Of a stretch of DNA of 60,000 nt, positions 15,701 through 39,800 are shown one piece after another (within the stretch, counting starts at the first letter, position 1; the number at the start of each line of letters is the position of its first letter). Both the position numbers and the translations under genes were made by a program. Under the pieces are notes generated by a model. The model saw nothing but the letters and a program-made list of their open reading frames with translations, did not search any database and was not told where the DNA came from. The DNA is from Bolinopsis microptera. Taxonomy: Eukaryota > Ctenophora > Tentaculata > Lobata > Bolinopsidae. The stretch covers positions 13,556,169 to 13,616,168 of the forward strand of contig NC_087072.1 of the NCBI RefSeq assembly GCF_026151205.1, read 5' to 3'.

Positions 15701-16523
15701 TTCGAACATCGAGCATTAATATATACATTATACATACGCTTATAAACGTATGTATAATGTATATATTAATGTATTATATATACAAGTTTCTTTGAACTAA
15801 TTGTAATTTCATGATTTGCATATAATATTTCAATTCTTTTTTAGCTCTCCGAAGAATAATTTCATTCATAAAATGATCCACAAACTATTAAAATTATAGA
15901 TGATTGTTATCAATAAAACTTTATTTCGTGTTACACTGTCGTGTTTCATTTTTGATAATTGTCAAAAGGGACTGACCTCACTCGCCAATTCACGATTTTT
16001 TATAATTTATGATTTTGAACATTTAAATGGTAAAAGATTTCAAAAAAACTCTCAAACCCAAAAATTTGTAATTTACTAATTTATTTGATTGATTAAGAAA
16101 ATTTCATGATATTACCTTTTGGCTTTTATCTTGCGAAATGGTCAATGAAATTTTAAGTTTAATAAGTTATTATAATTTCAGGTGTTGGTATCGAATCCTG
16201 AGTTTGACTACGTCCCAAGTGATATGATAGAACTGTTTATAACTAACACTGGAGGACATGCTCCCTCGTATCTTTACAGAATCGTATCAGGTAATTTCAC
16301 CTAGTCTATCTGTCAACTGATATATTATCTTGTATCTCCATAATAAATGCTTTAATAGTGATTCTTTAGTTGAACAAAATTGCAGACTCACTAAACTCAT
16401 CATTTGTGATTTGTATATTTTAAAATAACTGAATTTATTATCCCCCTCCTCTCAGAGCTGTATCACCCGCATGATAACGATCTGGACAACATGTGTGTAG
16501 AGGAATCTGATGACGAACACTGA
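12708..16523 (+). CDS. EIF2B2: eIF2B subunit beta
   Basis: Regulatory subunit of eIF2B, the cytosolic guanine-nucleotide exchange factor that recharges eIF2 with GTP. Seven exons: 12708-12842, 12960-13189, 13332-13443, 13602-13805, 14704-14931, 16182-16290, 16456-16523. All junctions are GT-AG, the phases agree, and the product is 361 aa (human 351). Conserved landmarks: [13 protein letters not shown] in the helical N-terminal domain; [40 protein letters not shown] and [20 protein letters not shown] in the Rossmann-like domain. The C-terminus [20 protein letters not shown] then SELYHP is diagnostic of the beta subunit rather than alpha or delta. Intron 4 carries a mariner-type MITE. Intron 5 carries the complete NMRK gene. 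An AATAAA at 16873-16878 is the likely poly(A) signal. Confidence 0.95.
13824..14591. mobile_element. Tc1/mariner-type non-autonomous element in EIF2B2 intron 4
   Basis: Perfect 34-bp terminal inverted repeats beginning CAGGGTGGGCCAAAAGTCAG, flanked by TA on both sides (13822-13823 and 14592-14593). TA duplication and terminus type fit Tc1/mariner. The 768-bp interior has no transposase; the small frame at 14178-14378 is not recognisable. The near-perfect TIRs suggest a recent insertion. Confidence 0.88.
15023..15025 (+). promoter_or_regulatory. Candidate acceptor before NMRK
   Basis: The sequence TATCCTAACTATAG ends at 15024, one nt before the NMRK ATG. CTAAC resembles a branch point but lies only 5 nt from the AG, closer than usual. 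Confidence 0.45.
15026..15562 (+). CDS. NMRK: Nicotinamide riboside kinase, intronless, nested in EIF2B2 intron 5
   Basis: Phosphorylates nicotinamide riboside to NMN in NAD salvage; cytosolic. The product is 178 aa from the ATG at 15026. I chose this over an upstream ATG at 14954 because the family begins a few residues before the P-loop. The P-loop is [10 protein letters not shown] (human ISGVTNSGKTT), followed by FNQDKYFK (the conserved QDDFFK), [10 protein letters not shown] (IIEGFLLFNY), and [17 protein letters not shown] (human PPDSPGYFDGHVWPMYL). No introns and the same strand as its host gene. A perfect 25-bp hairpin (15714-15771) and AATAAA (15912-15917) follow, so its mRNA could end before EIF2B2 exon 6. 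It may be an old retrocopy or a gene engulfed by a growing intron. Human has NMRK1 and NMRK2; I cannot say which is the ortholog. Confidence 0.93.
   Translation: MVIVVGLGGGTNSGKTTICKKLVENIPKCFVFNQDKYFKTLEEAKLVFPDSEVNWETCPALKMDDLVADVKEEMKKDHNVIVVEGHLALNFAPLIELYDATIFITLSHELALKRRLTRCYDPPDGPGYFENVVWPAYFLILEEVKGNEKLKPNFFDAADPDVCYEGVEEVVKECLSQK
15714..15771. repeat. Perfect 25-bp inverted repeat (hairpin, 8-nt loop)
   Basis: Arms 15714-15738 and 15747-15771 are exact reverse complements with an 8-nt loop. The arms start CATTAATATATACATT. It lies about 150 nt past the NMRK stop, upstream of its likely poly(A) signal, and also within EIF2B2 intron 5. It could be a 3'-UTR stem or a small palindromic element. 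Confidence 0.9.
15912..15917 (+). terminator. Poly(A) signal, probable NMRK 3' end
   Basis: AATAAA about 350 nt after the NMRK stop, followed by a T-rich stretch. Confidence 0.5.
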
Positions 16524-16872
16524 CCAACGTGACCAAATCACGTGACCAACGTGACCAGATCTTCAGTTCAACCTTATCTGTCATCTGATGTTTAGGAAGT
16601 ATAGGAGACTCACCACAAATGGAAGAGCAGATTGTGTGTCACTTTTCTTGCTGTGCAAGAGCTGGACTCTAGGCTGGGGTTTAGGACTCAACATTTCTGA
16701 ATTTATCTGAATTTGAATTAATATATTTGTTTTTAACGACAATGGTATTCCATCTCTAATCTTGATAATTAGCATGGCAGGGCTAACTTTAAAATTTAAT
16801 AATAATTATATAACAACCTACTCATTTTCGTTACCAAGCCATACTAAGATTGATTTCTGTTCATTATTGTTA

Positions 16873-16878
16873 AATAAA
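16873..16878 (+). terminator. Poly(A) signal, probable EIF2B2 3' end
   Basis: AATAAA 350 nt after the EIF2B2 stop and 70 nt before the EIF3F acceptor. The spacing resembles the intercistronic regions of trans-spliced operons. Confidence 0.5.
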
Positions 16879-16944
16879 AATTTGAAAATCAAATCGTCAT
16901 GTAGTGTTCAATCTAAACTGAAAAACGAAACATTTAAAAAGGTT

Positions 16945-16947
16945 AGG
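16945..16947 (+). promoter_or_regulatory. Candidate acceptor before EIF3F
   Basis: AAAAAGGTTAG ends at 16946, one nt before the EIF3F ATG. The polypyrimidine tract is weak. Confidence 0.35.
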
Positions 16948-18542
16948 ATGGCAGTAGAAGGAAGAACCGTAGCACTTCCAGTGCGAAAAGTTATAATCCA
17001 CCCCGTGGTTTTGTTTAACATTGTAGATAACTACGAGAGAAGGAATGACAACAATAAGCGTGTCATCGGTACACTCATGGGAAGGTTTGTAGTTTTCCGT
17101 GTTTTGCAACTGACGTTTTTATCATTTTGATATGATGGAGTTTTCTTTAAATGTGGCAAAATTTTGGTAATATTGAATGTTACTTGGAAGTTAATCGAGC
17201 ATAAAATAATCTTTAAAATTACAGTTTTTAAAATTAAAACTTATCAGGTACGACAAAGGAACCGTGCACGTGACTGAGTCGTTTGCTGTTCCCCATCAGG
17301 AGACTGAAGAAGAGGTGTCCATGGACATGGAGTACGCTATGAGAATTGGAGAACTCCAGAAAAAGGTTCGGCTTTCTCAGATCTCAGAACTTTCTATAAA
17401 ACGGATAAGTTGATTTGTGATATAAGCCACTTGAAATCTATCATTCACTTGCTCTGATACAATACCGGGAACGATGCCTCATTACCCGACCCTCTATCAC
17501 CCTCTCTCACCAGGTAAACACGACGATGTACACAGTAGGGTGGTACAGCAGTGGAATAATAATCAACGAGTACAGTTCCCTGATACACGCCTTCTACAAG
17601 TGTCAATGTCCCACCCCAGTCCATCTTACTGTAGACACGCAGCTCAAAGAGCAGAAGATGAAGATCAACACTCACATTACGTCTCAATTAGGAGCTAAGA
17701 ACGGAACTGAGGGTTGTATTTTCACTCCTGTTCCTCATGTCATTACTGGAGCTGAGGCTGATCAGGTAAAATTAGGCTAACTTTTCAATGTAAATTTTCA
17801 GGTTAAACTTTCAATCTATCACTGGCATGAAGAATGCTCTTTCAATAAATATATTTCATCTATCAGTGACCTACCAAATTTTTGCAGGTAAGTTTGAAGT
17901 TTTTCCAAGGACTACGAGGAACCAGAAAGACTCCAAATTTCAACGATCAAGAACAGATAATAAATTCTTGTGACGACATGATATCGCAGATTAACATTGT
18001 CATGGGACACGTCAAAAAGGTGAGTAAAATAAGGTTAAATTATGATATTTAGATCAGTTATTTGTTTAGAAGCAAGTAAAACTTGACAGATTATATCTCA
18101 TTATGAGACCATGATTACTAAAAACATGACGTGACTTTTAACAAACTGTATTGTACAGGTGATAGCTGGAGAGGTACCCAGTGATAAGGAGTTAGGAAGA
18201 CAGCTGATGGAGGTTGTACAATCTATACCTAACCTTGATGGAGATACTATCACTAACATGCTCAACTCTCATATGCAGGTATATTATACAATGATGATAT
18301 TTATCGTTATATTACATCACGCAAATAATCAGTAAACTGGGTTTTTAACTATCGAAACCTCTTTATTTTTAAAGTCATCTGATGACATGGACAGCATGAC
18401 AGTTTGTGATAAATTGAGAATTAACCAAGAGTTTGAATCGAATTAACGTCATCATCTCCAGGATCTTCTCGCTGTGGAATACTTGACATATTTAACGAGA
18501 CAGCAGTTGGCTATCAGCGCCAGAATTAACCAGATTCTATAG
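16948..18542 (+). CDS. EIF3F: eIF3 subunit f
   Basis: MPN-domain subunit of the eIF3 complex, which helps recruit the 40S ribosome to mRNA in the cytosol. Six exons: 16948-17084, 17248-17365, 17514-17765, 17888-18019, 18159-18278, 18462-18542. Junctions are GT-AG, phases agree, product 279 aa. Landmarks: VIIHPVVLFNIVDNYERRN, VIGTLMGRYDKGTVHVTESF, VSMDMEYAMRIGELQKKV, YTVGWYSSGIIINEYSSLI and HLTVDTQL of the MPN core, then the C-terminal helices (LLAVEYLTYLTRQQLAISAR). The long Ala/Pro N-terminal extension of vertebrate eIF3f is absent. The start is supported by the MPN boundary and an acceptor-like TTAG directly upstream. It begins 424 bp after EIF2B2 ends. Confidence 0.95.
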
Positions 18543-18781
18543 AGATCACATTAAAGCTGTTTTTAAAGGAGAATAATCTTGAATTTATTGTGCGGTAGAG
18601 TTTCTTATTTTTGACGTCCAGTTTTGGTTCACTCAAGCTTGTAACGGTAGATTCAGGATTGTCAATATTTGGAATTGTTTTATTTATTGATCAATGGGTT
18701 TCTGTGTTTCATTCCTAGTTGAGAGTAGAGCTAAAGTATAAACTTAAATACGCTTCTCAAATCTTTGTCTGGTTTCTTTTC

Positions 18782-18787
18782 AATAAA
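18782..18787 (+). terminator. Poly(A) signal, probable EIF3F 3' end
   Basis: AATAAA 240 nt after the EIF3F stop and about 65 nt before the ZNG1 acceptor. Confidence 0.5.
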
Positions 18788-18829
18788 ATATATTTTTTGT
18801 TACCCTATCACTGTACCACAAATGAACAG

Positions 18830-18853
18830 CTAACACTCCCTGGCAGCTACAGG
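18830..18853 (+). promoter_or_regulatory. Candidate trans-splice acceptor before ZNG1
   Basis: CTAAC at 18830-18834 is followed 17 nt later by CTACAG (AG 18851-18852), one nt before the ZNG1 ATG. Branch-point-like and acceptor elements are at normal spacing. Confidence 0.5.
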
Positions 18854-21800
18854 ATGTTAGTTGATGATTCAGATGACGAGGCTCCCTGCCTGATACCAGC
18901 CGAGGTTCCCACACTGGTTTCCGGATCTGTAGCTGAAGATGATACCCCCAACATTCCCGTTACCATCATTACCGGTCAGTACTGGTTAACAAGGTGTTTT
19001 ACTGGTCAATACTGGTTAACAAGGTGTTTTACTGGTCAGTACTGGTTAACAAGGTGTTATACTGGTCAGTACTGGTTAACAAGGTGTTATACTGGTCAGT
19101 ACTGGTTAACAAGGTGTCTTACTGGTCAGTACTGGTTAACAAGGCGTTTTTCTGGTCAGTACTTGTTAACAAGGTGTTTTACTGGTCAATACTGGTTAAC
19201 AAGGTGTTTTACTGGTCATTACTGGTTAACAAGGTGTTTTACTGGTCAGTACTGGTTAACAAGGTGTTTTACTGGTCATTACTGGTTAACAAGGTGTTAT
19301 ACTGGTCAGTACTGGTTAACAAGGTGTTTTACTGGTCAGTACTGGTTAACAAGGTGTTTTACTGGTCAGTACTGGTTAACAAGGCGTTTTACTGGTCAGT
19401 TGTAAGGGTTTATCGAACTATTTTAAACTTCTCCGCAGTTCATTTTCACGTAACTCACTATAAATATACTAACTCACGCACGTATTGATACTTCGATCTA
19501 GTTCATCTTTTAGAAAAGTTTATCTTGGAGGATATCAGTGACGCGATTCCCACTACAGTGTAAGCTGCAGTGTAGCTGTAATAGTCTACCGCCATTCGGA
19601 ATGAGTGTGAACTTGCTTACCAGGCAATCATGATTTCCGCTTGGTACTCATCAGGTCTCTAAGAAAGCCAACAGTGTGCTGATATGCACTGTCATATGTA
19701 CTTCCTAGAAGCAGCACACGGCCCATTTCGGACTTGCACGAGTTATATTTTTAATTTGGCTGTTTCAGGTTATTTGGGAGCAGGTAAAACGTCGCTGTTG
19801 ACGTATATTCTAAAGGAGCAGCATGGTAAGCGTATAGCAGTGATAGTTAATGAGTACGGCGAAGGAGCGGCTGTGGAGCAACCGGGAGCTCTGGGAGTGG
19901 GAAATGAGAAGTAAGAGGTGATTATAACTGATCATTTTAACGAACATTATTAAATTATATTATATATGCTTTTAAATGATTAAAGTATCCTGTTCTCTAA
20001 TTAATCTCTGGCTTTGTTTTAACCTGATGACAATGTCAGGTACGAAGAGTGGCTGGAAATGACGAATGGTTGTTTGTGTTGTGCTGTGAAGAGTAACGCT
20101 GTTATGGCTATAGAGAAACTCATGGAGAAAAGTGGAAAGTTCGACTATGTTCTCATCGAAACAACTGGTAAATATTCTCTTTTAGTTCTACTGTTTTGAA
20201 CTATATTTCGTTTTACCAAGACCCCGTAAAGTTGAAGCTACGAGATAAAAACACTATTAATAGCTAAGAGATCACCTCACCTGAAGAGTCTTCAGTGAAC
20301 TTAAACTGTCCAGGTTTAGCTGACCCAGGGAACATAGGACAGACGTTCTGGGTAGATGAGGGACTTTCTAAACTGTACCTGGACGGTATTGTCACTCTCT
20401 GCGATGCTTACAACTTCAACAAAACATTCCAGGTATTTACACTCTTAGACTAGTTAGTCGTTATTTGAAATGGAATATTTCTATCAATATAATGGACCAT
20501 GAATATGAAGATGTTTTTCTTCTCATAGCGTATCTTGCTGCTGATTCACTGTAATAAAACTGAACTATTTCACCACGTATTTGTCGCCGCCCCTGCACAT
20601 ATCCTCTATTCTAGGGTTTGCAACTTATCGAGATAATCGATACATTATAATTTATATAGAATTATGGAAATATTACCGGGTCGATATGTAGGACTAGGTA
20701 AGGCTTGTAGGTTATATTTATATTGGACTACGCTTTCTAAAACTCCTCCGTTCAACCCGTCTCATAGTAAATAAACTCTTCCATCCAAGTCGATCCCTTG
20801 CTAAGTTCACTAAGTTGGTAAAATCGTACTTTCTATGTTTTAGCGGGAGGAATATTATCTCGTTGCATACCCTATCTTCAACCTGTTCATCCATTCCTTC
20901 CATACAATCCACCTCATTGTCCATTCCCCAAGAAACTGGGAACCCATAATTTATATTGATTTGAAGTTGAACATACGCACAGATTGAAATTCCTTCGTCA
21001 TGACTAAATCCTATATCCTAGACTCCATGAAATTTGTAGGCAGACTTTTAGATTAACATTTTTTAGCTTAAAATAAGTATCAATTCTAAACACGATCATA
21101 GATCATAATTCATAGCATAATAATATAGGTTGTAATGAAAAGTTCAATAAATGTAGAATTTCTCAGTATAATAGTAGCAATGATAAGCCTTACCAACACT
21201 CACCTCTTTCCTCAATTAAGTAATATTACAAAGTAAATCATATATATGATGAATGTTAAAAACTGGACTTCTGTGTTGAATTAAGTGATGTTAATTTTAA
21301 AGAATGTTCTCATTTTGTTCATCAATGGTTTCTTTAGTTCACAAATTATCTGTCTCAGCTAATACTTGATTTTGAAGTTCGCGATCCTCTTGTACTCGTA
21401 ATGGTTCCATTTGCATGACATCTAGCCCGGAGTCAGCACTCTGTATGTCTACACTCCTTGTCTGAAAAAATCTTGCGATCGAAGACATAATTGTGGAGGT
21501 ACTGTTCCTGATGAGTCTTTTTACTTCCCCTAATTTTCTTCCTAGGAACTCTGTTAAAGTTTTTTCGTATATCAGCGGGTTGATAACAGAGTTAAGTGGA
21601 AGAACTATCATCGCATACGTAGCATAGGGGGGGGTCCACGTTAAAAAAGTTAAATTCTAAGATCGAGATTTTGGAATTTAACATTAATTACTTTAACTTT
21701 TTTAACTTTTTTAACATAAATTAAAAATCAGATTTTGGCTGACTAATCGGTTCAAATTTTAACATAATTACCCAAATTAAACTCAATTATGAGTGTTGAC

Positions 21801-24800
21801 CTTTAGTACTAGTAGTACCTCGCTCTTGCAATTGTTTTCTGTAGTTGTAACTGATTTGATAACTCTACAAAAAAAACACCTTGTATCTATATATACACAT
21901 AATTGTATAATTTACTAATATACTTCGACTTACTTCGACTTAGGGCGGCTTCAGTGTCCGAACAGAAATAGTCTTCTTCCAAATCTGTCTATCCAGCATG
22001 AGTTTGTTAATCTCTTTGCTGTCGTCAAGCCCCGTGTCCTTCCGAAGGATGTCAATGTATGTGAGATGTGGTCTTCCCCTTCGACGATGTCCTTGAAGGG
22101 GTTCCCAGAAGAGAAGTTGATGACTCAATAGTTCTTCATGTCTGGCTAAATGACCTGCGAGTCTCATCCTCCGTGCAGCTATCTTATCAGATGCTCTGAT
22201 GAGGTGTCCATACACCTTGGCGTTACTCAACTGAGTTGGCCGCAACACTATCTGTTATAAGATCAAGGTCGTCAGCAAAGTCCGCATCAGTGACCTTGAC
22301 TGCCGGATAGCGACGGCTTCGTCTATGGTGTAGAGTAAACCCAAAGTCCCTACCCTCTAGGGACACCCTCATAATGTAGCCAATTACGATTATGAATAGG
22401 TAGGGCGCCAAAGTGTCTCCCTGCATCACTCCTGCTAGAATGAAGAATGCTTCACTCAGACCGTCCTCGGTAATCACACGAGCAAATGTATCTGCACACA
22501 TTCTTTGTATCAAGCCTACAATCTCCTTGGGAATTCCATATGCCAGGAGGATCTTCATGAGGAGTCCACGGTGTCCGCTGTCGAATGCCTTCTTGAAATC
22601 AATGAAGAGCATTACCGCGGTCAGATCTTTATCCCGGGCTCCCTCAAATACCCTTCTTAGGCCAAGAATATGACTAGTTGTTGACCTACTCTCTCTGAAT
22701 CCGTTCTGATTGATCCTTAAGATGTCTTCCATGGCAGGTTTGATCCTGTTCAGTATCATCTTATTGAGAGTCTTACTCACTATAGATGTCAGTGCAATAC
22801 CTCTATAGTTATCTACTTTGGTCAAATTCCCTTTCTTTGGAACAGGCACGATGTTTAGGTGCTTCCATTGGTCAGGAACATCGCCATCAACTAGTGCTTT
22901 ATTGCAGAAGTCAAGGATCAAATCATCAACATCTACCCTCTTCAGTACTTCAGGGGCAACTCCATCCTCTCCAAATGCCTTACCTTCTTTAATCGATTTC
23001 GTAGCCTCCTCCAGTTCGGTCTTGGTGAACTTATCCACACTGATGTTTTGTGGTGGATGTACGACTTGTATGTCCACCTCTTCGTTTGGAACTACTGGAG
23101 GTTGTCCAAGTAGCTTGGTAACGTGGTCTTTCCAGGCTCTCAATCTATCCTCTCTACTACCTCCTTCTACAAGACCACATGGCTTCTTCTTTCTCCCACT
23201 GACCTCATTAACAAGATTCCAGCTCTCTTTGTTCTTGCATCTATCGGCTGCGTTTTCAGCTTTTCTTATTTTCTGTTTAAGCAGCTCTTCCTCCACAGTA
23301 CGGTAGCATGCAGAGAGAGTGTCTTTCTCCTCGGCAACTGTCTGTCTGTTGTCTTCACAAGGATCCAGATGGTAGGTCTCCTTTGCAGCAAACAATTTGC
23401 TTCTGGCTTCCTCTACTCGTGGGTCGTTGGCAGGATCGTCATACCGCTTCTTATGTACTTATTAGTGTATTCAAGTTTTTGTTGTGTATTCAAGTTTTTG
23501 TTGTGTGGAGGATGTTTTAACTCACTCTTGTGTGCCTAGTCTTGCACTGTCAGTATTTCTCGACACTTTGAGCACACAAAACTGTCAGTTTTCGCGACAA
23601 TTGTCAGATTTCGTTTTCAGTTCTGTCAATTTCAAGCGCTACTAGCTCTACTACTAGACACTAGTAGTCTACTTCAGCTCACATTAAAGGGAGTTTTCGT
23701 CGTGCGTGTAGCGCCCTTCAAGTTTAACTTGGACGGATATGATTTATAAAACTTCTGATTATAATATTTATTATTTGTGACTTATAAATTAGTAACAATT
23801 ATATTACCGTCTAAAAAAATTTTTGTCGAAAATTTATTTTATGAAGTCTAAAAAAATTTTTGTCAAAAATTTATTTTATGAAGGAGTAAGTTGTCAAAAG
23901 ATGCGCATTTGTATATTCATTTATTGCTTGTTTAATTTGTTTTTTGTGTTTAATTTACGATTATTTGTGTTTGAGATTCTGTGATTAAATTTATTTTGTT
24001 GATTGTAATGTTGTGATATTGCATAATTTATTGTAAATGTAGCATATGTTTCAGAAAATTATGTAATGTAATGCGATGGAAGTTCTTTAAGCTGGCAATT
24101 CCAGTCCAAACCCTGGAAACATGACATAAAAGATTCGGTTTTACTTCTTTGAATGAAAAGCACTAATATTGTATTTTGTATCTATGTATTTTAGTAAATG
24201 GTCATTAGAACCACCGGCACCGTCCGGGCCCAAACAAACATTAGGTTTATGCAGAAGATGCTTCCTATTTGCATACTTCACTGCTTCAATAAACTTTCCA
24301 TACTTAGTGGTGACGTCAGTTAGTAGGACCTAGATCTAGTTGCTCCTCACTCAAGAGTGCACTATACCTATTTCTAACTTCAACTCCATACTTGATCTGT
24401 AACTCTTGATCAGTTTTGAGACGACTGAAGTCGTAACATGTGACCCGTGGTGGACTTATGCTCTTTCGTAGACTGAGCTTTACAGTTGAGAGTACTGCCC
24501 GATGGTCAGAGCCCAGGGAATTGAAAGTGTTGCATGGCTCGGTGTTCTTTATTGAGCTCATCCACTTCTTCCGTACCAGGACATAGTCAATCTGGCTCCT
24601 AGTTAGTACTCCATCTGAGAGGTGAGTCCACTGCTTACCAGGACTCTTCTGAAAACGATGATTCGTCGCCTCTAACTCTCCCTCCAGTAATGTATCCCTG
24701 AGCAGATGACCATTACGATTGGTCACTTGATGCCAGTACCATCCCGTATCTTCACCATTCAACTTGCTGAGGTGAGCATTAAGATCTCCTATTACAAGTA

Positions 24801-27800
24801 TTAGATGATGAGAGGGGACCTCCCTTACTGCTGCTCTCAAGCAGTCGTGAAACTCTTCGGCTTCTTCGACAGTTGCGGATTCCGTTGGACTATACACAGA
24901 GATTATGGTTAATCTTGGGTTTCCGTCCAACGACACAAGCATGCAGCGCTTACTATAGGTCTTGATAAGACTAACTGCATTAAAGGCTTGTTTAGTCAGC
25001 AGGAATCCCACTCCTCCTGTAGACGCTTGTGCTCTGTTTCTCCATGCTGAAGTTGTTATTAGGTGGACTCCCTTCTTGTGCCTCTCTATCTTGACTTCTT
25101 CATCATGCACAACTCGGTGTTCTTGTATTGCAAGGACAGATATCTGACTGCGCAAGAAAAGAATAACCATTTCAAGCCGTTTAGAAAACTCCCTCACAGT
25201 ACGGACATTAAGAGTCCCAATGATACTCTTCGTTGTACAACTAACTACTCCTCCACTATTTTTTTGTTTTTTGATGTTTTCTGTTGGCTTTCTAGGATTC
25301 ATAAACACATCATCAGCTGCCCGTCCACTATGTGGGTTTAAGACAACCGAGTCATAACTGTACTGATCCTCGATAGGCCTGGTAGGGGCTTGAACCCTAG
25401 TGCTTTTGGTTGTAACCATATCTGTTTTTCAAAAGGCTAAGTGACCCAGTGAAGTCCCCTTCACTGTGACAAATTGTCACTAATCCCAATGCCACGCCAC
25501 CGGAACATTGGGGAAAACCGCAGGAACATTTTACCAACTCGAACATGTAAACGTTAACCACATGAACATAACGTTTATCAGGCTGTATCACTAGCACTCA
25601 ACTTTACTCTACTCGATCTTCACCTGCTCCATGCAGGACTTAAGCTTATGACCTAAAGCGTAAGGGAGTTAGAGCGTGAAACAGAAATTTCCGCTTTGAC
25701 GAGGGCTAACTCTCCCTCTGACTACCGAGTACCGGTTACCCTGGCACAGGGAGCTGTATCCTATCTAACAGAGCGTGGTCCAGTCTGACTGGGTCGTAGT
25801 AGAATAGGTTTGGAGGGTAACAGCCTACACCTCTTTAACTACTGTGCAATCCACAGTAAAGATTTATGAGTCTCCGAGCCCCTTGTGAGCCAAGAGTTTA
25901 GGAGTCAATGACGTTTTGTGATTGAGCTCCTCGGGACTCATTGTTTCCCGTCGCCCTTCCTGTATTTAGCCTGGACACAGCCCAGTTTCCAGTCTTCACC
26001 ACGTGGAGGTAGCAGGGGAGGACTTGATGTGGAGTGGCTATCAACATGTTGACTAATGATTAACTGGAAGGGGGCACCACAGGGATACCCCTTTTCAAAG
26101 TTCTGACAACCTCACGGCAGCACAGGGTTTCTATCCAGCAGTGACACTTTGGGCCACCTAACCTTCACACAACCATTGGAAGACCAAATAATATAATCAT
26201 TCATATAATAGGAAAGAGCATGTCGGCCAACCACAAGTACACAGTAGTGGTCAATGGGTTGGAATTGCGGGACAGATTACAGGTAGTAGCGAATGCTATT
26301 GATGCCAAGTATAACGGAACGTCAGAAACTGGGAAGGAGTGGGCAGAGTATTTGGGGGATGAAAATTACAGTCAGAATTCAGTCGGGACCCAAGGAAATG
26401 GCTCGCAGCCCGACCAATACTCATTAGGAGGGTGGCTGTCACGATATGGTCTGGAATGTTACACGGAACAGTTGGAAGAGGCGGGATTTGGATCACCCAG
26501 TAATTTCCAGTGTGTTCAGGAAAGTGACCTGGACAAGTTGGAAATATTTGACAAATGTCATCGGCTGACTATCCTGCATGCAGCCAAACGGATCCTTATT
26601 AGAGGAGTAGCTAATATCGTGAAGGAAGAATGTTAGAATCAACGAAAATAACATCCCCTGGCCCTCCTCGTCAGGAAACACAAATTGTATTGATACTTTT
26701 ATAATGGACAATGGTACATAAATAAATTTATATATTTCTGAATAAGTTTCAATGTTCCATTTATTTAATATTATACAGCTAAATTAATATTATCCAGCTA
26801 ATTTATTAAATTACTTTTGCAGATATTTTCATTTTATTCTCTCGATAATTGAAAGGTTTTATTTTACCCAGCTCGGTAGTTTTGAATTTCAATTGTTTTT
26901 AACATTTAAAGGATGAGGGGACCTTAGAATTTACTTCCAAATATTCGCGTTTAAGTCCTGTGAAAGTGTGTAGAATCAAAAAATACGCCGGACTGTGTAA
27001 TCGATAATTCGTGCAATATCACGCCGCGCTCCTATTGGCTGATAGCAATTTTGGGCTGTGACGTCAATTATGTGTAAGACCAACGTGCGCGCGCACCCTT
27101 CGCTAGTGTCAACATTTTGTCCTGTTCTGTTTTAATTACGTTGTGTTACCTTTGGCGTTTGCGAGAGCGGTATCTTTGGTTGCACTAAATTAGTCTAAGT
27201 TACGAATAATTCTCTTTGATAGTTAAATGTAACTCAGAAAGGCTTTCTTGTAGTTGTAGTAAGTATTTCTATTTATAAATAGCTAAGATAAGTAGCATCC
27301 GCTAACTAAACCACAAACTGCTATTTTGTTTTGACTTGTTTGAAACCCGATATGGACACAATTAAAAATCGGCATATTTCTTTATTATATATTATATATA
27401 CAAGAATAAAGGAATATTATTATATATATATATACAAGAATAAAGGAATGTATTTTTATATGAAATGTGCGACGAACAATATAAAATCAAGTGTTGCAAT
27501 CGGCAGAGCACAATCAAATCAAGTGTTGCAATTGGCAGAGCACAATACATATGAAATAGAAGATATGTTGACCGACCCACTTAATATATGTTTAGCTTTT
27601 CCGAAACTTGTTCGTTTAGTGATTTAAATCCGACATATTTGCCTGACTTGCTGGGGTACATTCTGCGGATAACTCTCACCACACACTGTGGTAGTCATTT
27701 TACTAGCTGGCCCTTGGCGCCTCTAGTCCTATCTGAGTGCGCACGTGCGGTTTTACACTGCGTGTACCGGCCTTTAGTTGTACACTCATTTATAATTTAC

Positions 27801-30800
27801 CGTTTTAGTTTGCTGTGACTTGAGTGTAAAGCGTAACGAATGTGGATGTGTTCGTCTGCTATGCTTGGTATAATATTGCTTGGTGTAATAGTTGCAAATC
27901 TTGCTTACGTTATAAATAGTGCCACATAGTGAGTTAGAACTTAAAAGCTTGGTGCTTGGTGCTTGTCCAACTGGAATGAAGACATGCATTTCATACCTAC
28001 CCGATCCATTTTTATTAGGACCGTGTTGTGTTGATATGACATGTTGATATATCAACTGTGGTACGATACAGGGAGTTGCTAGGTGTTACGTTGGGAGCTA
28101 TAAATATACATAATTTACATGCCTTTCTGTGTGACTTCTATCTTATTTCAGGTGTATCTCGGCTCATGGTTATCGTAGGGTGATAATTCTTTTTTCAACC
28201 GGTCATAAAAAGTCTCCTCTCCATTGGTTATAGGCTCGTTAGTATCGTAAATTGTTTATGTATTCTTAATTAGTAATTTAGTCAGCCCGCACGCTCATTT
28301 TACCTGTATTTCTATATGCGCGGATCAGAGCAACTCACATAATTGACGTCACAGGTTCAAATTGTTTTGGCTGGATATCTCGGCGCGCGAATGAAATACA
28401 ACTTTGCGGATTTCACTAAAGTGGTTTATACGATTAATGTAATAAAAGGATTTGCACGAGAAAAAAACTTTTTCTAAGGTCCCCTCATCCTTTAATCAGT
28501 TTAATGATCAAATGTATCAATTATTTATCGGTTGTACCTATGTTATATTAGGACGCAATGAAACTACCGGACCACGATGTATGGGGACTTGCCACCCCAT
28601 GGCAACATAAAAATATATCGACTCTGTTACATCGTTTCCTCAAATTATTTGTTATATAGTAGTGTTGTAAGTATTAAAACTGTATATATGACTGTTTTAC
28701 TCTTGTCATGGGCATTCCTATATTCCTACATGTAATGACTAATGAACAAAAATACCAACGCATGACCTAAAAGTAAACTAGTCTAGAATATTCACTCCAT
28801 TGCAATTTCAACCCAAATTTGAATTTATGTTAAAAAAGTTAAACTTTCTAAGCCTGAATTTTGAAATTTAACATTAATTACTTTAACTTTTTTAACTTTT
28901 TTTAACGTGGACCCCCCCCTAGCATACCATTCAGTCGCATCAAAAACGCCGAGGTTATGCATACCGCTGATAACAATAAATGGTACCCAACATAAGAAAT
29001 CAGTGGCAACAATAAGAGCAATTTTATTTTGTACAGATCTATTGTCCCTCAATCTTTTTGGGGTATGATGCTGTCCTGATCTCCGTGAAGAAATCCTGGT
29101 TTGAATATTGATAACTATGTAGCAAAAAGTGATGATGATGAAGCAGACTAAGTTCACACCAAGCATTAGCCAAACTACTGGATCTCCTTTATGATCAGTT
29201 ATGTCCGCGTTACTTTCAATCGATTGTCTGATTCTTCTTGCATCGTCACTCCTAACAAAGTACTTGAATAAGCAGACACCGTCGTTTCCATAAAAATGAA
29301 CTGGACGTCTACTCAAAAGTCCATATTGTTGAGTGAACATACCGTCCACCTTATCACCGATTTGTTTCCAGGTCAAATCCGTAGTGATGTTAGTGGTATT
29401 ATAGTGAGCTTGAAGAACATTGACATGTTTCTCTTTGTTGGGGAAGCCTATGAACACTTTGTAGGCGGGGTCATAATACATTCCTTGTACAAAATATCCC
29501 TCAAATGAAGGTATCAATGGTATAACAGCTATAGCAAGGGATGCGGCAAGGATTCCCGTCGCTAGGAAAGCTAGCTTGACAGCAGAGCTTTTGTTTGCAG
29601 GGCCTGGAATACTCTTTTTCTTAAAAGTGAGCCAGAACATTCGGATGATACTCAAGGCTGTCATGGCGAAAAGGGAGACTTGTGATCCAATCGTGCTGAT
29701 GACCCCTAATATGGAGCATGCTGTTCCGGTGTACCATTCGGCTTGATGTCTGCAAAACCAGTTCCCATGTACAAAGCTATCATAGAAAGACAACAGAACC
29801 AAGTATAATCCGATAAATAGATCCCCTGATCCGATAAGACTGATCAAGGCTTTGTTAGGTAAAATACGTTCATTTCCACTATGCTTTATAGTTTTTAGTC
29901 CAATGAATACGGTGTACGAGTTAAATATCAATGCTAGCACACCCATAATCCAGGATGATACCTGCAGTGTTAAGTTTTCAAGTATCCTTTTCCCACAACC
30001 GGTATTACATTCATCTGAGAGGTCAAAGCAATCGTATATACCGTCACATCTCTGCGATAAGGAAATGAACTGATGCTTAGTTGAGTTCAAAGTTTCTTCA
30101 CAAATCATGTGATTTGCACAGTTCAACTCGTCACTCATGTCCCCACAGTCATCTATGAGATCACATACTTGCTTGTATTCCACACATCTACTGTTATTGC
30201 ATTGAAAATAGTCCTGGTGATATTGGCCTTTCTTTGACTTCTCAACAAACGTTAGAAAAGAGTTGTTAGCAAGCGTATATGCTCGATCAGGATATTGTCC
30301 AGGACATGAATTGTACAACAATGTTCTGTTTTTATTTAGAGGACATGGGGCATCTAGACATAGATCCATGCAACTTAGAAACAGGTAATATTCACCAAAC
30401 AAATAGTTGCAATTAACCTTTGAGGTCGGAACGATTAACTCTGACTTCGTTATTCCAAATACATCAAACCAGGGTCGAACGAATTGTTTCACTTCACAGT
30501 TGGAGTCACTGCATACATCTCGCAATCCTCCGTGATAAAGAGCGGTCTTATTGATCGTTGGGAAATCTCTTGCAATCCTACAAACCTTATTCTCTGCACC
30601 GTCACCACACGTCTCCACTCCGTCACAAAGTTGTTCGAATTGAACGTATGGTTTATCACCTTTCGGACACAAATACACGTTATTGCAAGTTTCGTCACTT
30701 TCTTTAAATCGGTATGATTTGTCAGTTTGATTACCACAGAAATTCAAATCCTCAGCCTGTTCATCCATTCCACCCATACAATCCACCACATTGTCCATTA

Positions 30801-33800
30801 TCCAAGAAACTGGTATTCCGACCATCATTTTAAAGCTAAACCTACGGACACACTGAAATTCCTTCGTCATGTATTCACACATGTCATGAAGTTCATCACT
30901 CCCATCAGGACAATCCTGCACTCCGTCACACATCCTGTGTTTGTGTACTCTACAATCAGTGGAAGTAGACGGTGATACACAACTGTGTTGAATGTCATCG
31001 TCACATAACTTAACTGGTAAACTAGTCCTCTCATCGTAAGCATAACACACCATGTACTTAGAAACACTTGACAAATATCCATTAATATCACAATACCCTC
31101 CTACTCGCTCTCTATCAGAACAGTTAGTCTGATCTAAATAGTTCAGACAGTATGGATATAGTCCACTCGTTATATCAAATACTGAGCACCTAGTATAGTT
31201 TAATATAGGTACTGTTCTAGTCTTGGTATTCACCACTTTACTGTAGTAATGTGTACACGAGTGTGGGGTAGTTTCAGTTACATTACAGTCCTGTTCATCC
31301 TCTCCTTTATCACAGGACCTGTATCCGTTACATAACCGGTATACAGGAACATACTTGTCCTTCCCCCAATATGTACAGTTAATTCCGTATTTATACCCGT
31401 TACAATCACTTTCATCTATACATCTAGTGACACATATATCATTACAGAGCTCTGTTGTTTGGTATCCTCTAACAGTTGCTGGGTACTTTCTCTGTGGGTC
31501 AGACGTTCTATTGATTTGTGATACAGGACAATCCTTATCTTCATTGCAGTTTTTATCACATTTGATGTATATGTTGTTACAAAACAAGCCTCCACACAGC
31601 ACATCCGTGTTTGTTATATGAGTACTAAACCCACATGCCTGATACACGTGGGGATCGTTCTCACACACTGTAGAAACACTCTCAAGCTGATGGCTAAGGG
31701 TAAAATCGTACCCACCATGCTGTCCAAAGTACACATCAGAGTGGGTACACTTGAAATAGTTTTGTTTCCTCTTTTCATCAAAACACACATTTTTGAGGAA
31801 GCCCGCTACTATCATAACTGTGCAATTTTCTCCTGATTTTCTCAATTCATCCACAACCCTGTAGTCAACACAGTCCGGACAAGAACAATACTCAGTTGTC
31901 TTACCACACCCTCCATTCTGTCTACAACACGGGTTCTCCTCATTAGGGTCACACTCAGCAGGACTGCCATCAGGGAGGCGATAATCTCCACCACATCTCC
32001 CATCGTACCTCCACTTTATCTTGCCCCCTGATTCTTTCCACTCCCTATATATAATGGTGTAATCTACACAGAAAGAACAAGAACAGTGCTCAGTTGTGTT
32101 ACCACACTGTCCATCATACGTATCATCACAACAAGGGTTCTCCCCATCAGGGTCACACTCAGCAGGACTTCCATCAGGGAGAGGATGCCATTCACCACAT
32201 CTCCCGTAAGACAACCACTTTTTCTTCAATTCACCTGATAGAGTAAAGTAATGTACTATTAAGTGTTGCATGAATAGTTGATAATGTTAACATCAATTTA
32301 TGTATAATTCCGCTGTCCTACAATTTCAAATATCTTACCTTGACAGAAGATGCCCTGAACTAAGACGATCAGTAGTGTGATCGAAAGTTTGACCCCCATT
32401 CTCGTTCCAACTGATTTCTTGAGTCGAGATCTTTAGAATTTAGCTAATTGAATCCTTGAATTAAGTGAAGCATGAACATTTTATAGGAAATTTCCAAAAA
32501 TAAAATGGGTTTAAACCCATTTTATTTTTGAGTAAATAAATTTTTTGGTAATCTTGTTTTGCTCTTATAAGTGGGTCAATCATTTATTTTTAATTAAATT
32601 ACACACTGAGTGGAGACTCTCATTTCGTCAACTACAATTAAAAATAAATACATTTTTTGATAAATATAAAAAATAAAAATGCAGAAGAAAACAAATCGAA
32701 GTCCAAAACATTTGATAATTGATCTCTCAACGGTCGTGTCATTATGAAGAACTAACGTCGAATAGTTTAAATGAGGGGCTGATATTTGTATTAAGTAGTG
32801 CTAACAATCGTTTTAAACGATTAAAAAATTGCCGAAATGTTAAGTGAACAAGCAAACAGAAATTACAAACGAAATGATATCATGAGGCCTATTTACAGTA
32901 AAAGTTCACTATTATGTTGAAAGTAAAATAATCACAAAAGTTCGTTTATAAATATACTGTGGAACTTAGAGGATTGATGGTTTAAAACTGACTGAGGTCT
33001 GAGCGCACCTCAGTTAAGTTCGTCAACTCTAAAGAAATACCCGTCCTGGTACGTACTACCCCGGCTCTGATCTCACTCTGGGTAAATATAGCGACTATGA
33101 GTATTTTGAGCATCAAATATGTCACGTGAACATCTAAACAGTTTGTAATTAGTCAATTTATTTCTAAGGACGAAACCAAACACCAAAATCAGCTCCTGAG
33201 TAGGCCTCAGAGAGAATGTTTGGCTGATGATTTTTTCTTCAAATTTATTTGAACAAAATAACGGTTTATTTTTCTTCAAATTTACACATGAGTAGAACCA
33301 ATTGTCCGCGCTAAAAAGTATCTTCAACTGGCCGTGGTTTCTGAGTGTGGTTGATGATTAATTACGAAGTATGAACTACGGATAATCTATGAGGTAATAA
33401 TTTTAAATAGAAATGAAGATTGTTCGAAAAATATTGTATAAGGTATTGCCTGTAATCGTTTGAATGACGGATGACCGGATGGTTACGCAAACGGTGCCCA
33501 ACAAACAGAATTTACAAGCGAAATCATTTTTAACGGGCCTATAGTTTTGGGTAGTTTTATTTAAAGCAAAATCTATTATTATATAATATATATTTATGAC
33601 CTCTCGTTTATGAATCTGTGAAACTGAAATGATTAATGATCGGGGACTGACTGTACACACTTCAGCTAAATTTGTTATCTCAAAATAAATGCGCGTCCTT
33701 GTGTGTTAGCCCTGATTTAACCATACGTCACTGTACCGTGTTGAATGCCATGAATATTCTAAGCACCGAATTTGTCACTTGATAAAATAGGCAGTGTTTG

Positions 33801-36800
33801 ATTGGTCCTAGTAGGCTGGGAATTTCAGAGGGAATCTCTTGAAATTGTTGGCTCTTGTACGTCTTGGTTATGTAGGTGATCATGTTTCTTTGGACATTCT
33901 GATTGCCACAGAAACTTACGTCCCCAACAATACAAAATGGCCCAATTGTTAGGTGAACAAGCAGTGAACAGAAATTACAAGCGAAATGTATCAAGGCAGC
34001 GTTACAATAAAAGTTTACTGTTATGTTGAAAGTAAAATAACAAAAGTTCGTTTATAAATATATACTGTGGAACTGAGAGGATTAATGGTTTAAAACTGAC
34101 TGAGCGTACCTCAGTAAATTCGTCAACTCTAAACTGTAAATAAATACCCGTGGCCGTCCTGGTACGTACTACCCCTGATCTCAACCTGGGTAAATATAGT
34201 GACTATGGGTATTGTGGGCACAGAATATGTCACGTGAACATCTGAACAGTTTGTAATTGCTCTATCTATTTCTAAGCACGAAACCAAACACCAAAATCAG
34301 CTCTTGAGTAGGCCTCAGAATGAATCTTTGGCTGATGATTTTTTCCTCCAAATTTATTTGAATAATATATTATAACGGTTTATTTTTCTTCAAATTTACA
34401 CATGAGTAGAACCAATTGTCCGCGCTAAAATGTACCGTCAACTAGCCGTGGTTGATGAGTGTGGTTGATGATTAATTATGAAGTATGAACTACACATAAT
34501 CTATGAGGTGATCATTTTTAAATAGAAATGATGATTGTTCGAAAAATATTGTATACGATATTGCCTGTAATCGTTTGAATGATGGTCGACGGACGACCGG
34601 ATTGTTATGCAAACGGTGCCCAACAAACAGAATTTACAAGCGAAATCATTTTTAACGGGCCTATAGTTTTGGGTAGTTTTATTTAAAGCAAAATCTATTA
34701 TTATATATTTATGACCTCTCGTTTATGAATCTGTGAAACTGAAATGATTAATGATCTGGGACTGACTGTACACACTTCAGCTAAATTTATCTCAAAATAA
34801 ATGCGCGTCCTGGTGTGCTAACTGCTAGCCCTGATTTAACCATACGTCACTGTACCATGTTGAATGCCATGAATATTCTAAGCACCAAATTTGTCACTTG
34901 ATAAAATAGGCAGTGTTTGATTGGTCCTAGTAGGCTGGGAATTTCAGAGGGAATCTCTTGAAATTGTTGGCTCTTGTACGTCTTGGTTATGTAGGTGATC
35001 ATGTTCCTTTGGACATTCTGATTGCCACAGAAACTTAAGTCCTCAACGATAAAAATGGCCCAACTGTTAAGTGAACAAGCAGTGAACAGAAATTACAAGC
35101 GAAATGATATCATAAGGCCTATGTTGTAAGGATAAGGCTGGCACACTTATGCCCACGTCTATTTGTTCACGGACTTTCCTGACGAATATTTTGCCAGTAA
35201 TTCACAAATACGGTAATACATATTCTCAAAGATATGGTGACTTTGGCTGGACATGTCCTAACTGTAAGAAAGCTCTCCTTGCAAAAACTGCTGTTAAAAC
35301 TGCGGACTCAACTTGCAATACAAGCATGGACAGCACCAAGAGTGTGGCTAGCACCAAGAGTGTGGCTAGCACTGAAAGTGTGGCTAGCACTGGAAGTGGG
35401 ACTACTACCACTACTGATACAACTTCAAGCAATGGAGATGAGAAGGCATTGATTGAAACTTTGAGCAATTTTAAAGTAAGTTTACTGTCAAGTGTAGAAG
35501 AACTTATTTCCATCAAACTTAAATCACACATAGATTCTTTGCTCACAGAAGTACCAAATCTTACACGAAGATCCAGCACCCCTAGTAGTGCATCATCTAT
35601 CCCTAGTAGTGCATCAGCCCTAGCCCTGCAAACACCTAGTTCTTTAATTGCTTCCCCAATGAAGACTACCAGTTCACTTTCATCTTCAAAGAGCTACAGT
35701 GCTGCGTTGTCTCCTGAATCGGCTATAGATAGCTCCACTAGTACTGCTACTGAGAACTACATAGAACTAACCAAGAAGGAAACTCCTATGCAAAAACTTC
35801 CCTCTGGCAATATCCATAATAATTCTCCTGATAATCATGTTATCGTCCTCAATGTAGAAGCTAGTAATACTAATCTTGAGGAAGCAGGGAAGCTAGCTAG
35901 TAAAGCCCTTGGTACAATACCCATGATCTTCTTGACCCCTAAACCAAAGACGGGCAAAATTGTTATCTCCTTCCCTTCAGAAAAAGATAGAGAGGATGGG
36001 AAAATAGCCCTCGCAAACTCATCAGCTGTAACTTCGTCCAAAATCACTGTTAATGATGCAAAGAAAATGTTCCCGAAAGTCACAGTTACGAATATCCCAA
36101 ACAACTTAATCTCCCACATTGTCTCTGAAAATCTATCAGTTCCTGAATTTCGAGAAAAGGTTAAAACCTTTATGGAATTGAAGCTTCTGGAAAAGAATCA
36201 ATATGTTAAAGATTTGGTGACTAAGCATGATAGAACATTTAAAGTTGTGTATGTCAATTATGGAAGAGACTACACTACTGTTGGGATTAAAGTGTCTCCT
36301 GACATAAGGCATTTCCTGTTAAACAATCAGTCCATTTACATAGGAAATTCCAGATGTAAAGTAGTTGATAGATTTGATCTTAAGCAGTGCTTCCGATGTC
36401 AGAAACTGGGACACATTTCATCTCAGTGCAACGAAACTGATGTTATTTGCATGTATTGTAGTGCATCACACATAACACGGGCTTGTCCCTACAAAGAGGT
36501 CAGAAGAAGTCACAGATGCACCAACTGCTCACACTCCACCTATGAATCATACAGAGAATCTTGTAACACCCATCACTCTGGTGCTGAAAACTGTCCCATA
36601 ATAATGCTGGAGAAAGAGAGTCTTAGACAAAGAACAGAGTACTCAAAAAACATGTGAAGACTACGCTTCTCAACCTAAATGTCGGACTGTTTAACACGAG
36701 GTCACTATGTAATAAAACTGCACAAGTATTTGAGCAACTGTCTGACTCCAATATCAATGCCTGTTTCCTGACAGAAACTTGGCTACGTAAGGGAGATACG

Positions 36801-39800
36801 TCAAAAATAGCGGAAATTAAAGACCTAGGCTATAATATTGTTCACCAATCTAGAGCTGGTAGAGGAGGTGGTGTCGCTATTGCCTTTAAGAAAGATATTA
36901 GCTTCAATAAACGCCCTACAAAGACCCATAAATCCTTTGAACATGTTGAGAGTGTGCTGAAGTCAAGTTCCAATGACCTTCTTCGTTTCTGCTGTGTCTA
37001 TCGATCTTGTACGGCTAAAATGTCCAAAATGACAGACTTTTTACGGGAATTTGATGAATATCTTGACAGTCTAACTCACCTTCCAGGTAGACTGATCATT
37101 GCTGGAGACTTCAATATCCATGTCGAAGACCTCACTGATCCTGATACGATAAATTTTATCCATCTCATATCAAACTATGGCCTCATCCAGCATATTTCCA
37201 GTTCAACACACATTGGGGGTGGAATCTTAGACCTTGTTCTTACTAGAAGCAATGCGTGTGATATGTTGAACATAAAAGATATAGATGTAGCTAAAACAGT
37301 AACAACATCAGATCACTACTTCGTAAATTTCTCTATTGCCTTTCCTCACCACAAAGGAAGCAACAAAGAAGATATGGTGGGCAGAAAGATATCAGATATA
37401 GACATAAATCTTTTTAAGGAGGATCTGTTGCTATCTGACATAAATGACCCCAACAAGTTTATTGACTGCAACTCTGCCACGGAACTCTATAACAAAGAAC
37501 TTCGCAGAATTCTTGATAAACATGCTCCCCTTATCTGTTTTAGCATTAATCCTGATCAAAGCAAGTGGGTGGACACAAAATGTCAAACTGCCAGAAGGAA
37601 ACGAAGAAAAGCTGAACGTGACAACAGGAGACTTAAAACTGCAGATTCAAAATTAGACTATAAAAAAGCTGTTAAGCATGCCGAGGCAGTTATAAACACC
37701 ACTAGACAGCTATACTATGAAAATCGTCTGCAAAGCTGTGAGGACAATAAAAAAGATACCTACAAAATAGTCAATCAGCTGATGGATCGGGACATATCTA
37801 AAAACTTGAAGCCTAATAACAAACCTGCTGAAACTCTATGTGAGGAGATGAAAGAGTTTTTCAATGATAAAGTGGAAAAGATTTACTCTGCCATTAACAA
37901 TGATACTGCAGCTGACATTCTTCTTGACCACTCTGAACCATTTCAAGGTGAAGCCTGGAGCCAATTTGAAACCATAAGCGACAATGATCTCAAAAAGATT
38001 CTTTCTGACCTTAACAAAAAAGAATGTGAAGAGGATCCCATCCCTCTAAAACTTCTAATGCAGTGTTTTAATGAAGATAAACCAATTGTGTCATTTATTA
38101 TCAATGACTCACTTGTCACTGGAAAATTTCCGTCAGTCCTAAAGAGTGCTCTTGTCAGACCAGCCATCAAAGATGATAAAGGAGATGTCAATAGCTTCAA
38201 CAACTATAGACCGATTAGTAACTTACCTTTCCTCTCGAAACTCATTGAAAAGAGTGTCCAGAAACAGATGACCAAACATCTTGACTATCACAATCTTCAT
38301 GCTGAGCATCAAAGTGGTTATAGGTCAAATCATAGCTGTGAAACTGCGACCCTTACCATCTACAATGATCTTCTTTGTATCAGTGACATGAAAAGTAAGG
38401 TTATCCTCCTCCTTTTGGACCTCAGTGCTGCTTTTGATACTGTAAATCATCACTTGCTCCTAAAAAAACTAAAAAAGGACTTTGGTTTTGAAGGTACTGT
38501 TCTCGAATGGTTTACATCATACCTTAATAACAGATCCTTCACAGTAACTATTGATAAATCAAGATCAAAGAGATGCTTCCTTAGAATTGGAGTCCCGCAA
38601 GGTTCAATTCTAGGTCCAATTCTGTTTATACTTTACACAAAGGAGCTCAATCAGATCGCAAAGAGACATGGATTTAACATCCACATGTACGCAGATGACA
38701 CTCAACTGTACATTGAGTTTAACCCACTATTTCGAGATCTCTCAACAATCGAAGAGAGAATAACAAATTGTTTTGAAGATATTAAGACCTGGATGACCCA
38801 AAATAAACTCAAACTGAACCAAAACAAAACAGAAGCTCTTGTAGTACAGACCAAGAACAGTTACTCTTCATGTCCAGTCGATTCAATACAACTTGACAAT
38901 GCAGCTGACCCTGTGGATGCATCCCGCACAGTGAAAAGTTTAGGTGTCCTATTTGATCAATTCCTAACATTTGAAGACCAAATAAATTCAATTATCAGTT
39001 GCTGCAACATCCATCTGAGAAACCTTCGAGTTATAGGCTCAAAGCTTAACTATGATCTAAAAAGACAGCTCATTCACTGCTTGATCTTTTCAAAACTAGA
39101 CTACTGCAATGGACTCTTATACGGTTTACCTGATCTTCTAATAAAGAAACTCCAGAAGGTACAAAATTCCTGTGTTCGATTCTTGTTTGGTTGGAAAGCT
39201 ATCAAAAAATGGGACAGTGTCACTCCATTCCTGAAAAAAGCCCATTTTCTTCCGATACGACAACGAATAGAGTATAAGATTGCTCTAACCGTGTTCAAAT
39301 GCGTTAACAACATAGCGCCGGAGTATATCATCAAATGTATTGACATCAAAAGTCAACCTGTACGTGTACTAAGAACTGAAGAAGACTATTTCCTCCTAAA
39401 TGTTCCTCCTATTTCAAACTATAGTAAAACCGAGAGAAGTTTCAGCTACTGCGGACCCTCTGTTTGGAATAAGCTTCCTTATCAATTGAGAACACTAACC
39501 GATATCGTCTTATTTAAAAAGAAACTAAAAACTCATCTCTTTGAAAACGTATTTGTATAAGTATCATGTATTACCTTTCTCATAAAATCCATACTTCATA
39601 AAAATAAGTTCTTATGTACATGTTACTCATGAGTCGCTTTAGATGGTTTGAACTGAATCTTTGGGTTTTGAGTTCTTTATGGCTATAAAGCGATGTATAA
39701 ATTCCTACTTATTATTATTATTATTATTATTTACAGTAAAAGTTTACTGTTATGTTGAAAGTAAAATAATCGCAAAAGTTTGTTTATAAATATACTGTGG

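Follow-up and report, generated by a model that had tools for sequence, protein, structure and literature searches.

Minisatellites that span splice boundaries are rare, yet examples are already known from lancelets, from the human ABCA7 gene and from human segmental duplications, so that the ZNG1 gene described here, which lies in a stretch of DNA of 60,000 nucleotides (the window; position 1 is its first letter), is a further case. The lancelet arrays are termed mirages and have repeat units that contain an exon-intron boundary and keep splice signals. According to the available parts of the reports, regular splicing is undisturbed by the lancelet mirages, including those of BflGb6 and BflGb9 (PMC3087553; PMC3902484). 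Adh, TnC and PGBD5 are further lancelet cases, the last with repeats at both 5′ and 3′ splice sites (PMC3902484). The variable number tandem repeat (VNTR) in intron 18 of human ABCA7 is a 25-bp array that starts with the GT of the exon 18 donor, with alleles of up to about 427 units. Frame-shifting isoforms of this gene amount to 14 ± 6 and 2 ± 1%, the 2% value belonging to one-unit retention if the order of the text is followed, and longer alleles are accompanied by lower expression and more skipping of exon 19 (PMC5954066). In human segmental duplications, exon-intron boundaries of recently duplicated genes are altered by internal tandem repeats, the units of which average 30 bp (PMC2812944).

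ZNG1 carries two such arrays, a 30-bp array at the donor of exon 1 and an 83-bp array at the acceptor of exon 5. Judged from their units, from the reading frames and from a paralog, both are probably mirage-type minisatellites that grew across exon-intron boundaries, with mRNA being formed mainly via the outermost sites. Like the lancelet mirages (Adh3, BflGb6, BflGb9, TnC and PGBD5, as far as described in the parts available), which vary in unit number, they consist of many units with splice signals; in ZNG1, unit numbers differ between the two paralogs. Whereas BflGb6 has 6 and 3 units in two haplotypes, ZNG1 has 14-17 donor and 12 acceptor units, and unlike the lancelet genes it combines a donor and an acceptor array with a paralog showing other states of both. 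The ABCA7 VNTR similarly begins at a donor, and low-level use is made there of a cryptic donor located one unit further downstream; unlike in ZNG1, its unit of 25 bp does not keep the frame, its influence on expression and exon skipping has been demonstrated, and the accessible part of the report mentions no acceptor array. The repeats of human segmental duplications differ in having 4 units on average, in lying for one half in coding exons and in having been checked against transcript evidence, as far as the available text goes (PMC2812944). Among the matches listed in the open-licence literature we recognised no account of this locus or of one gene with a donor and an acceptor array, although, from the parts of the report at hand, lancelet PGBD5 may be an earlier example of a gene that has boundary repeats of the two kinds, in low copy number. 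What is unusual in ZNG1 is that a donor and an acceptor array occur within one gene and that a paralog is there for comparison.

The gene model was derived from translation and homology, with eight exons placed by hand (Table 1), and all seven introns are of the GT-AG type. The predicted protein of 405 amino acids matches the Pfam families cobW (PF02492, E 1.1e-47) and CobW_C (PF07683, E 3.6e-7) and, among solved structures, YjiA, which we take to be the E. coli protein. It contains the sequences GYLGAGKTS, corresponding to the Walker A motif (GxxxxGK[ST]), and CLCC, corresponding to the CxCC motif. Transfer of zinc to METAP1 is the biochemical criterion for a ZNG1 or CobW (COG0523) GTPase; the gene described here, known from sequence alone, is by these matches a ZNG1-type CobW GTPase.

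Tandem Repeats Finder (TRF) reports the 30-bp array at positions 18969-19400 with 14.4 copies, 94% matches and a score of 773. The donor of intron 1 is located at 18974/18975 (ACCG/GTCAGT, the slash marking the boundary), and the repeat starts six bases within exon 1 (TTACCG there, TTACTG in the units) and thus spans the exon-intron boundary. An initial annotation of this DNA had described about 14 copies beginning at the donor, with units that restate it, and this description proved correct: 15 donors occur at 30-bp steps up to 19395, with 11 GTCAGT (the number given there), 2 GTCAAT and 2 GTCATT. Equally accurate was its statement that any of these donors could be used without a frameshift, since each of the 15, when spliced to exon 2 at 19769, stays in frame into YLGAGKTS and adds n x 10 residues before Walker A. 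This in-frame property carries little weight as evidence, because two of the three forward frames across the array are free of stops, which makes openness in the ZNG1 frame nothing special, and because a period divisible by three is a one-in-three event. Two further GT sites in each unit, CTG/GTTAAC and AAG/GTGTTT, to which the initial annotation makes no reference, are located 10 and 19 bases past the donor and would shift the frame (counted by hand). Inside the unit, TACTGGTCAG resembles the following TACTGGTTAA (8/10 identical). Descent of the unit from the single-copy part of the intron 3′ of the array was unsupported, the best local score of 12 being matched by 1473 of 5000 shuffles.

In the 83-bp array (97% matches, TRF) the acceptor of intron 4 is repeated 12 times, a repeat that the initial annotation had left unconnected with the donor array. 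Each unit comprises a pyrimidine-rich tract, a CAG acceptor and 30 nt that correspond to the first bases of exon 5, and thus contains the exon-intron boundary, as does the donor unit. All 12 acceptors are intact and read TTTTCCAG. Use of 11 of them leads to a stop at residues 202-204, and the last one, 41717/41718, alone gives the protein; of the 180 combinations of donor and acceptor, 15 are open.

A second copy of ZNG1 with the same donor array lies about 274 kb upstream of the first on this contig, in a segmental duplication that also includes a proteasome subunit gene, presumably PSMD7 as the name was recognised from its sequence. The 14 listed matches of the donor array all map to the two ZNG1 loci, in a search that scores its best candidates only. 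The donor array of the paralog has 17.4 units according to TRF. Its 18 in-register donors all read GTCAGT (15 as CTG/GTCAGT, the first included, and 3 as CCG/GTCAGT), and an extra GTCAAC in one unit brings the number of sites to 19. Splice signals are thus kept in 11 of 15 window donors, in every in-register paralog donor and in all window acceptors. Three units of the paralog measure 35 bp as a result of a 5-bp insertion, and the first of these brings an in-frame stop, so that, of the 18 donors, numbers 1 to 5 alone keep the protein and the other 13 lead to an early stop. Both gene copies nevertheless retain an intact 405-aa reading frame over eight exons. They differ by 19 synonymous and 8 nonsynonymous changes (dS 0.076, dN 0.0084, dN/dS 0.11; Nei-Gojobori method, NG86, own script), a ratio indicating that the two proteins evolve under purifying selection. 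With the stop in its array and both proteins intact, the paralog appears to do without the in-frame property. The possibility that the arrays are assembly artefacts, to which tandem repeats are prone in general, or that the gene copies are dead, is extremely improbable: the donor array occurs at two loci that differ in their unit variants, part of the acceptor array is found again on a different contig, and both frames are intact at the dN/dS given above. Among 8 matches obtained with a 170-aa query there were no intron-less copies of ZNG1, which would reveal splice use; each match maps to one of the two ZNG1 loci. About 230 bp of intron 1 in the window copy (19527-19757) are absent from the paralog and had no other match in the window or in 15 further pieces searched.

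The acceptor array differs more strongly between the copies, with 12 units in the window and 1 in the paralog. A third, partial copy was found on contig C2 (piece L012), consisting of 1 unit and 31 bp of the next, which implies a source with two units or more. In the flank of the array, window and paralog are 2.5% apart, whereas the C2 copy differs by 7.9% from the window and by 9.1% from the paralog; shared-site counts are 45 for window and paralog, 11 for window and C2, and 3 for paralog and C2. Either the acceptor array would be older than the paralogs and have shrunk to 1 unit in one of them, or the C2 copy would be derived from the window copy and have diverged faster. The distance of 2.5% between the paralogs in this flank (about 40090-40750) compares with 7.6% at synonymous sites of the exons, and local gene conversion in the flank is possible. 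On the same piece of C2 (7889-9901), about 2.8 kb from the partial acceptor array, a 366-bp unit is repeated at least 5.5 times at 98% identity up to the end of the piece.

The initial annotation had further proposed that the donor of unit n is regularly used and inserts n decapeptides before the P-loop, yielding a graded set of GTPase variants. As a kept function this is very unlikely, even though all 15 products of the window donors retain the glycine before YLGAGKTS, and hence the Walker A string, and even though the pairing of GTCAGT unit donors with U1 is about equal to that of the real donor. In the paralog, the 13 donors leading to a stop belong to a gene under purifying selection; an array out of frame, which the annotation had itself named, for related species, as speaking against its proposal, is what is found there, with 5 of 18 donors in frame. 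Nor is there a sign of selection on the decapeptide. The 14 units of the window array contain 8 distinct changes from the consensus, 6 nonsynonymous and 2 synonymous, which is no better than the 65 nonsynonymous and 17 synonymous changes (besides 8 stops) among the 90 possible single changes of the unit that would be expected without constraint; the frame, as said, would be one of two that are open anyway. Four of the 15 window donors lack the +5 G, and their pairing with U1 drops to +3.3 kcal/mol. The alignment with YjiA suggests that an insert would part the first beta strand from the P-loop, and the translated array matches no Pfam family.

In the window array the +5 G has changed more often than any other column (4 of 14 units, not a count of independent events as units share changes through duplication), and its loss argues against selection to keep these donors. 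In the paralog, none of 10 unit differences falls on the +5 G (14 of 17 units compared, the three 35-bp units excluded) and none of the 18 in-register donors lacks it. These numbers bear on the idea of clusters that adjust expression, in which additional U1 sites close to the start of the gene, or poison acceptors reducing ZNG1 output, set the dosage between the two copies. Core signals kept in 18/18 paralog donors and 12/12 window acceptors would agree with such a role, as would the different unit numbers of the paralogs (14.4 versus 17.4 for the donor and 12 versus 1 for the acceptor array) and, in the available part of the ABCA7 report, the lower expression and increased exon skipping that go with longer VNTRs (PMC5954066). 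It is nonetheless unlikely, given the losses at +5 G in the window and the fact that recent homogenisation, which the matches of 94% in the donor and 97% in the acceptor array reflect, would likewise leave the signals intact. A more elaborate version, in which the number of donors sets the share of decapeptide-extended protein and the number of acceptors the share of truncated, decay-prone transcripts, so that the output of the paralogs would differ by repeat number alone and individuals would vary, is highly improbable.

Calculated pairing with U1 in a fixed register amounts to -2.9 kcal/mol for the unit donor CTG/GTCAGT and -2.8 kcal/mol for CCG/GTCAGT of the real donor, as compared to +3.3 kcal/mol for units with GTCAAT or GTCATT. 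The other sites in the unit, AAG/GTGTTT and CTG/GTTAAC, give -1.7 and +0.2 kcal/mol. Twelve real donors, 7 of ZNG1 and 5 of the adjoining proteasome gene (the latter placed by eye), range from -10.2 to -0.8 kcal/mol; array donors with GTCAGT fall within this local range, and inner donors are possibly used.

Mirage-type growth with splicing at the outermost sites can be envisaged as follows. A tandem duplication across the splice boundary would have seeded an array on the exon-1 donor, in both gene copies, and on the exon-5 acceptor. Unequal exchange or slippage would then lengthen the intron by whole units while the outer edge of the exon stays put, and as long as the outermost sites are used the protein would be untouched and unit number free to drift. 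Normal mRNA would mostly arise from donor 18974/18975 and acceptor 41717/41718, with the extra sites being intronic; inner donors of the window copy may now and then add decapeptides in frame, and inner acceptors may occasionally yield truncated transcripts susceptible to decay. From the conserved frames, the stop in the paralog and the 11 truncating acceptors we infer that splice-site use at both arrays is mainly of this kind. The best explanation of the intact frames and the dN/dS of 0.11 is that sites which keep the frame are used to a substantial extent; such sites are 5 of 18 among paralog donors and 1 of 12 among window acceptors.

Several points weigh against outermost-site splicing. 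Duplicated donors often favour the intron-proximal copy. The first donor of the paralog shares its 9-mer with 14 others, the remaining three being CCG/GTCAGT, so that the local sequence does not explain a preference for the first one. Immediately 3′ of the window array, GTT/GTAAGG (GT at 19402; frame-shifting, counted by hand) pairs with U1 at -4.8 kcal/mol, which is better than any unit donor; with several comparable or stronger sites in the units and just past the array, the choice of splice site is beyond what sequence by itself can tell. As an average over time, the dN/dS between the copies is no proof that the window copy remained functional once 12 units had accumulated in its acceptor array. 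Finally, lancelet boundary repeats could, according to the portion of the report available, act as cryptic sites and be a source of new introns (PMC3087553).

That one gene carries two arrays is not very surprising. In a small background sample of 12 pieces of 10 kb at fixed positions (120 kb, contigs C1 and C2 only), 3 arrays with at least 10 copies and a period of at least 20 cover 3642 of 120,000 bases (3.0%), two of the three ending at the border of a piece; long minisatellites are common in this genome. At this density the rough probability that at least 2 of the 14 ZNG1 splice sites lie inside arrays is 0.066. The locus is accordingly a good natural experiment and not a strong statistical anomaly: it tests the choice of the spliceosome among near-identical sites, with 15 and 18 donors and 12 acceptors of which the last alone keeps the protein. 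If the host is not a lancelet, as seems to be the case, boundary-spanning minisatellites extend to another animal group. One sampled piece (L014, 7201-10000) holds a 51-bp unit in at least about 55 copies that runs past the end of the piece.

Table 1. Positions in the window of the predicted ZNG1 exons, the two arrays and the duplicated segment
Feature	Positions	Strand	Remarks
5′ part of segmental duplication	16322..21539	+	proteasome subunit gene and ZNG1 exons 1-4; shared with same contig near 13.30 Mb
Exon 1, coding part	18854..18974	+	ends in first base of Walker A glycine codon; position set by hand from the translation; Pfam cobW and YjiA matches of the protein
Intron 1	18975..19768	+	
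Donor array	18975..19394	+	14 units of 30 bp, donor copy at start of each
15th and last donor copy	19395..19400	+	GTCAGT, followed by single-copy intron
Exon 2	19769..19910	+	P-loop YLGAGKTS
Exon 3	20040..20167	+	
Exon 4	20314..20432	+	
Intron 4	20433..41717	+	about 21 kb, acceptor array at its end
Acceptor array	40752..41747	+	12 units of 83 bp; acceptors at 40805 + 83n
Exon 5	41718..41941	+	if last acceptor is used (1/12 keeping frame)
Exon 6	42008..42087	+	
Exon 7	42155..42335	+	
Exon 8	42466..42688	+	stop codon included; CobW_C domain

Intron 4 contains further long open frames, of which the translations were read by eye. A stop-free frame of 1153 codons on the minus strand (28828-32286) resembles a receptor that combines repeated cysteine-rich modules with a C-terminal part of seven helices, and DNA similar to this region is present on contig C2 (piece L012). 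The frames at 22223-25428 (minus strand) and 35116-39557 (plus strand) resemble endonucleases and reverse transcriptases of the long interspersed nuclear element (LINE) type.
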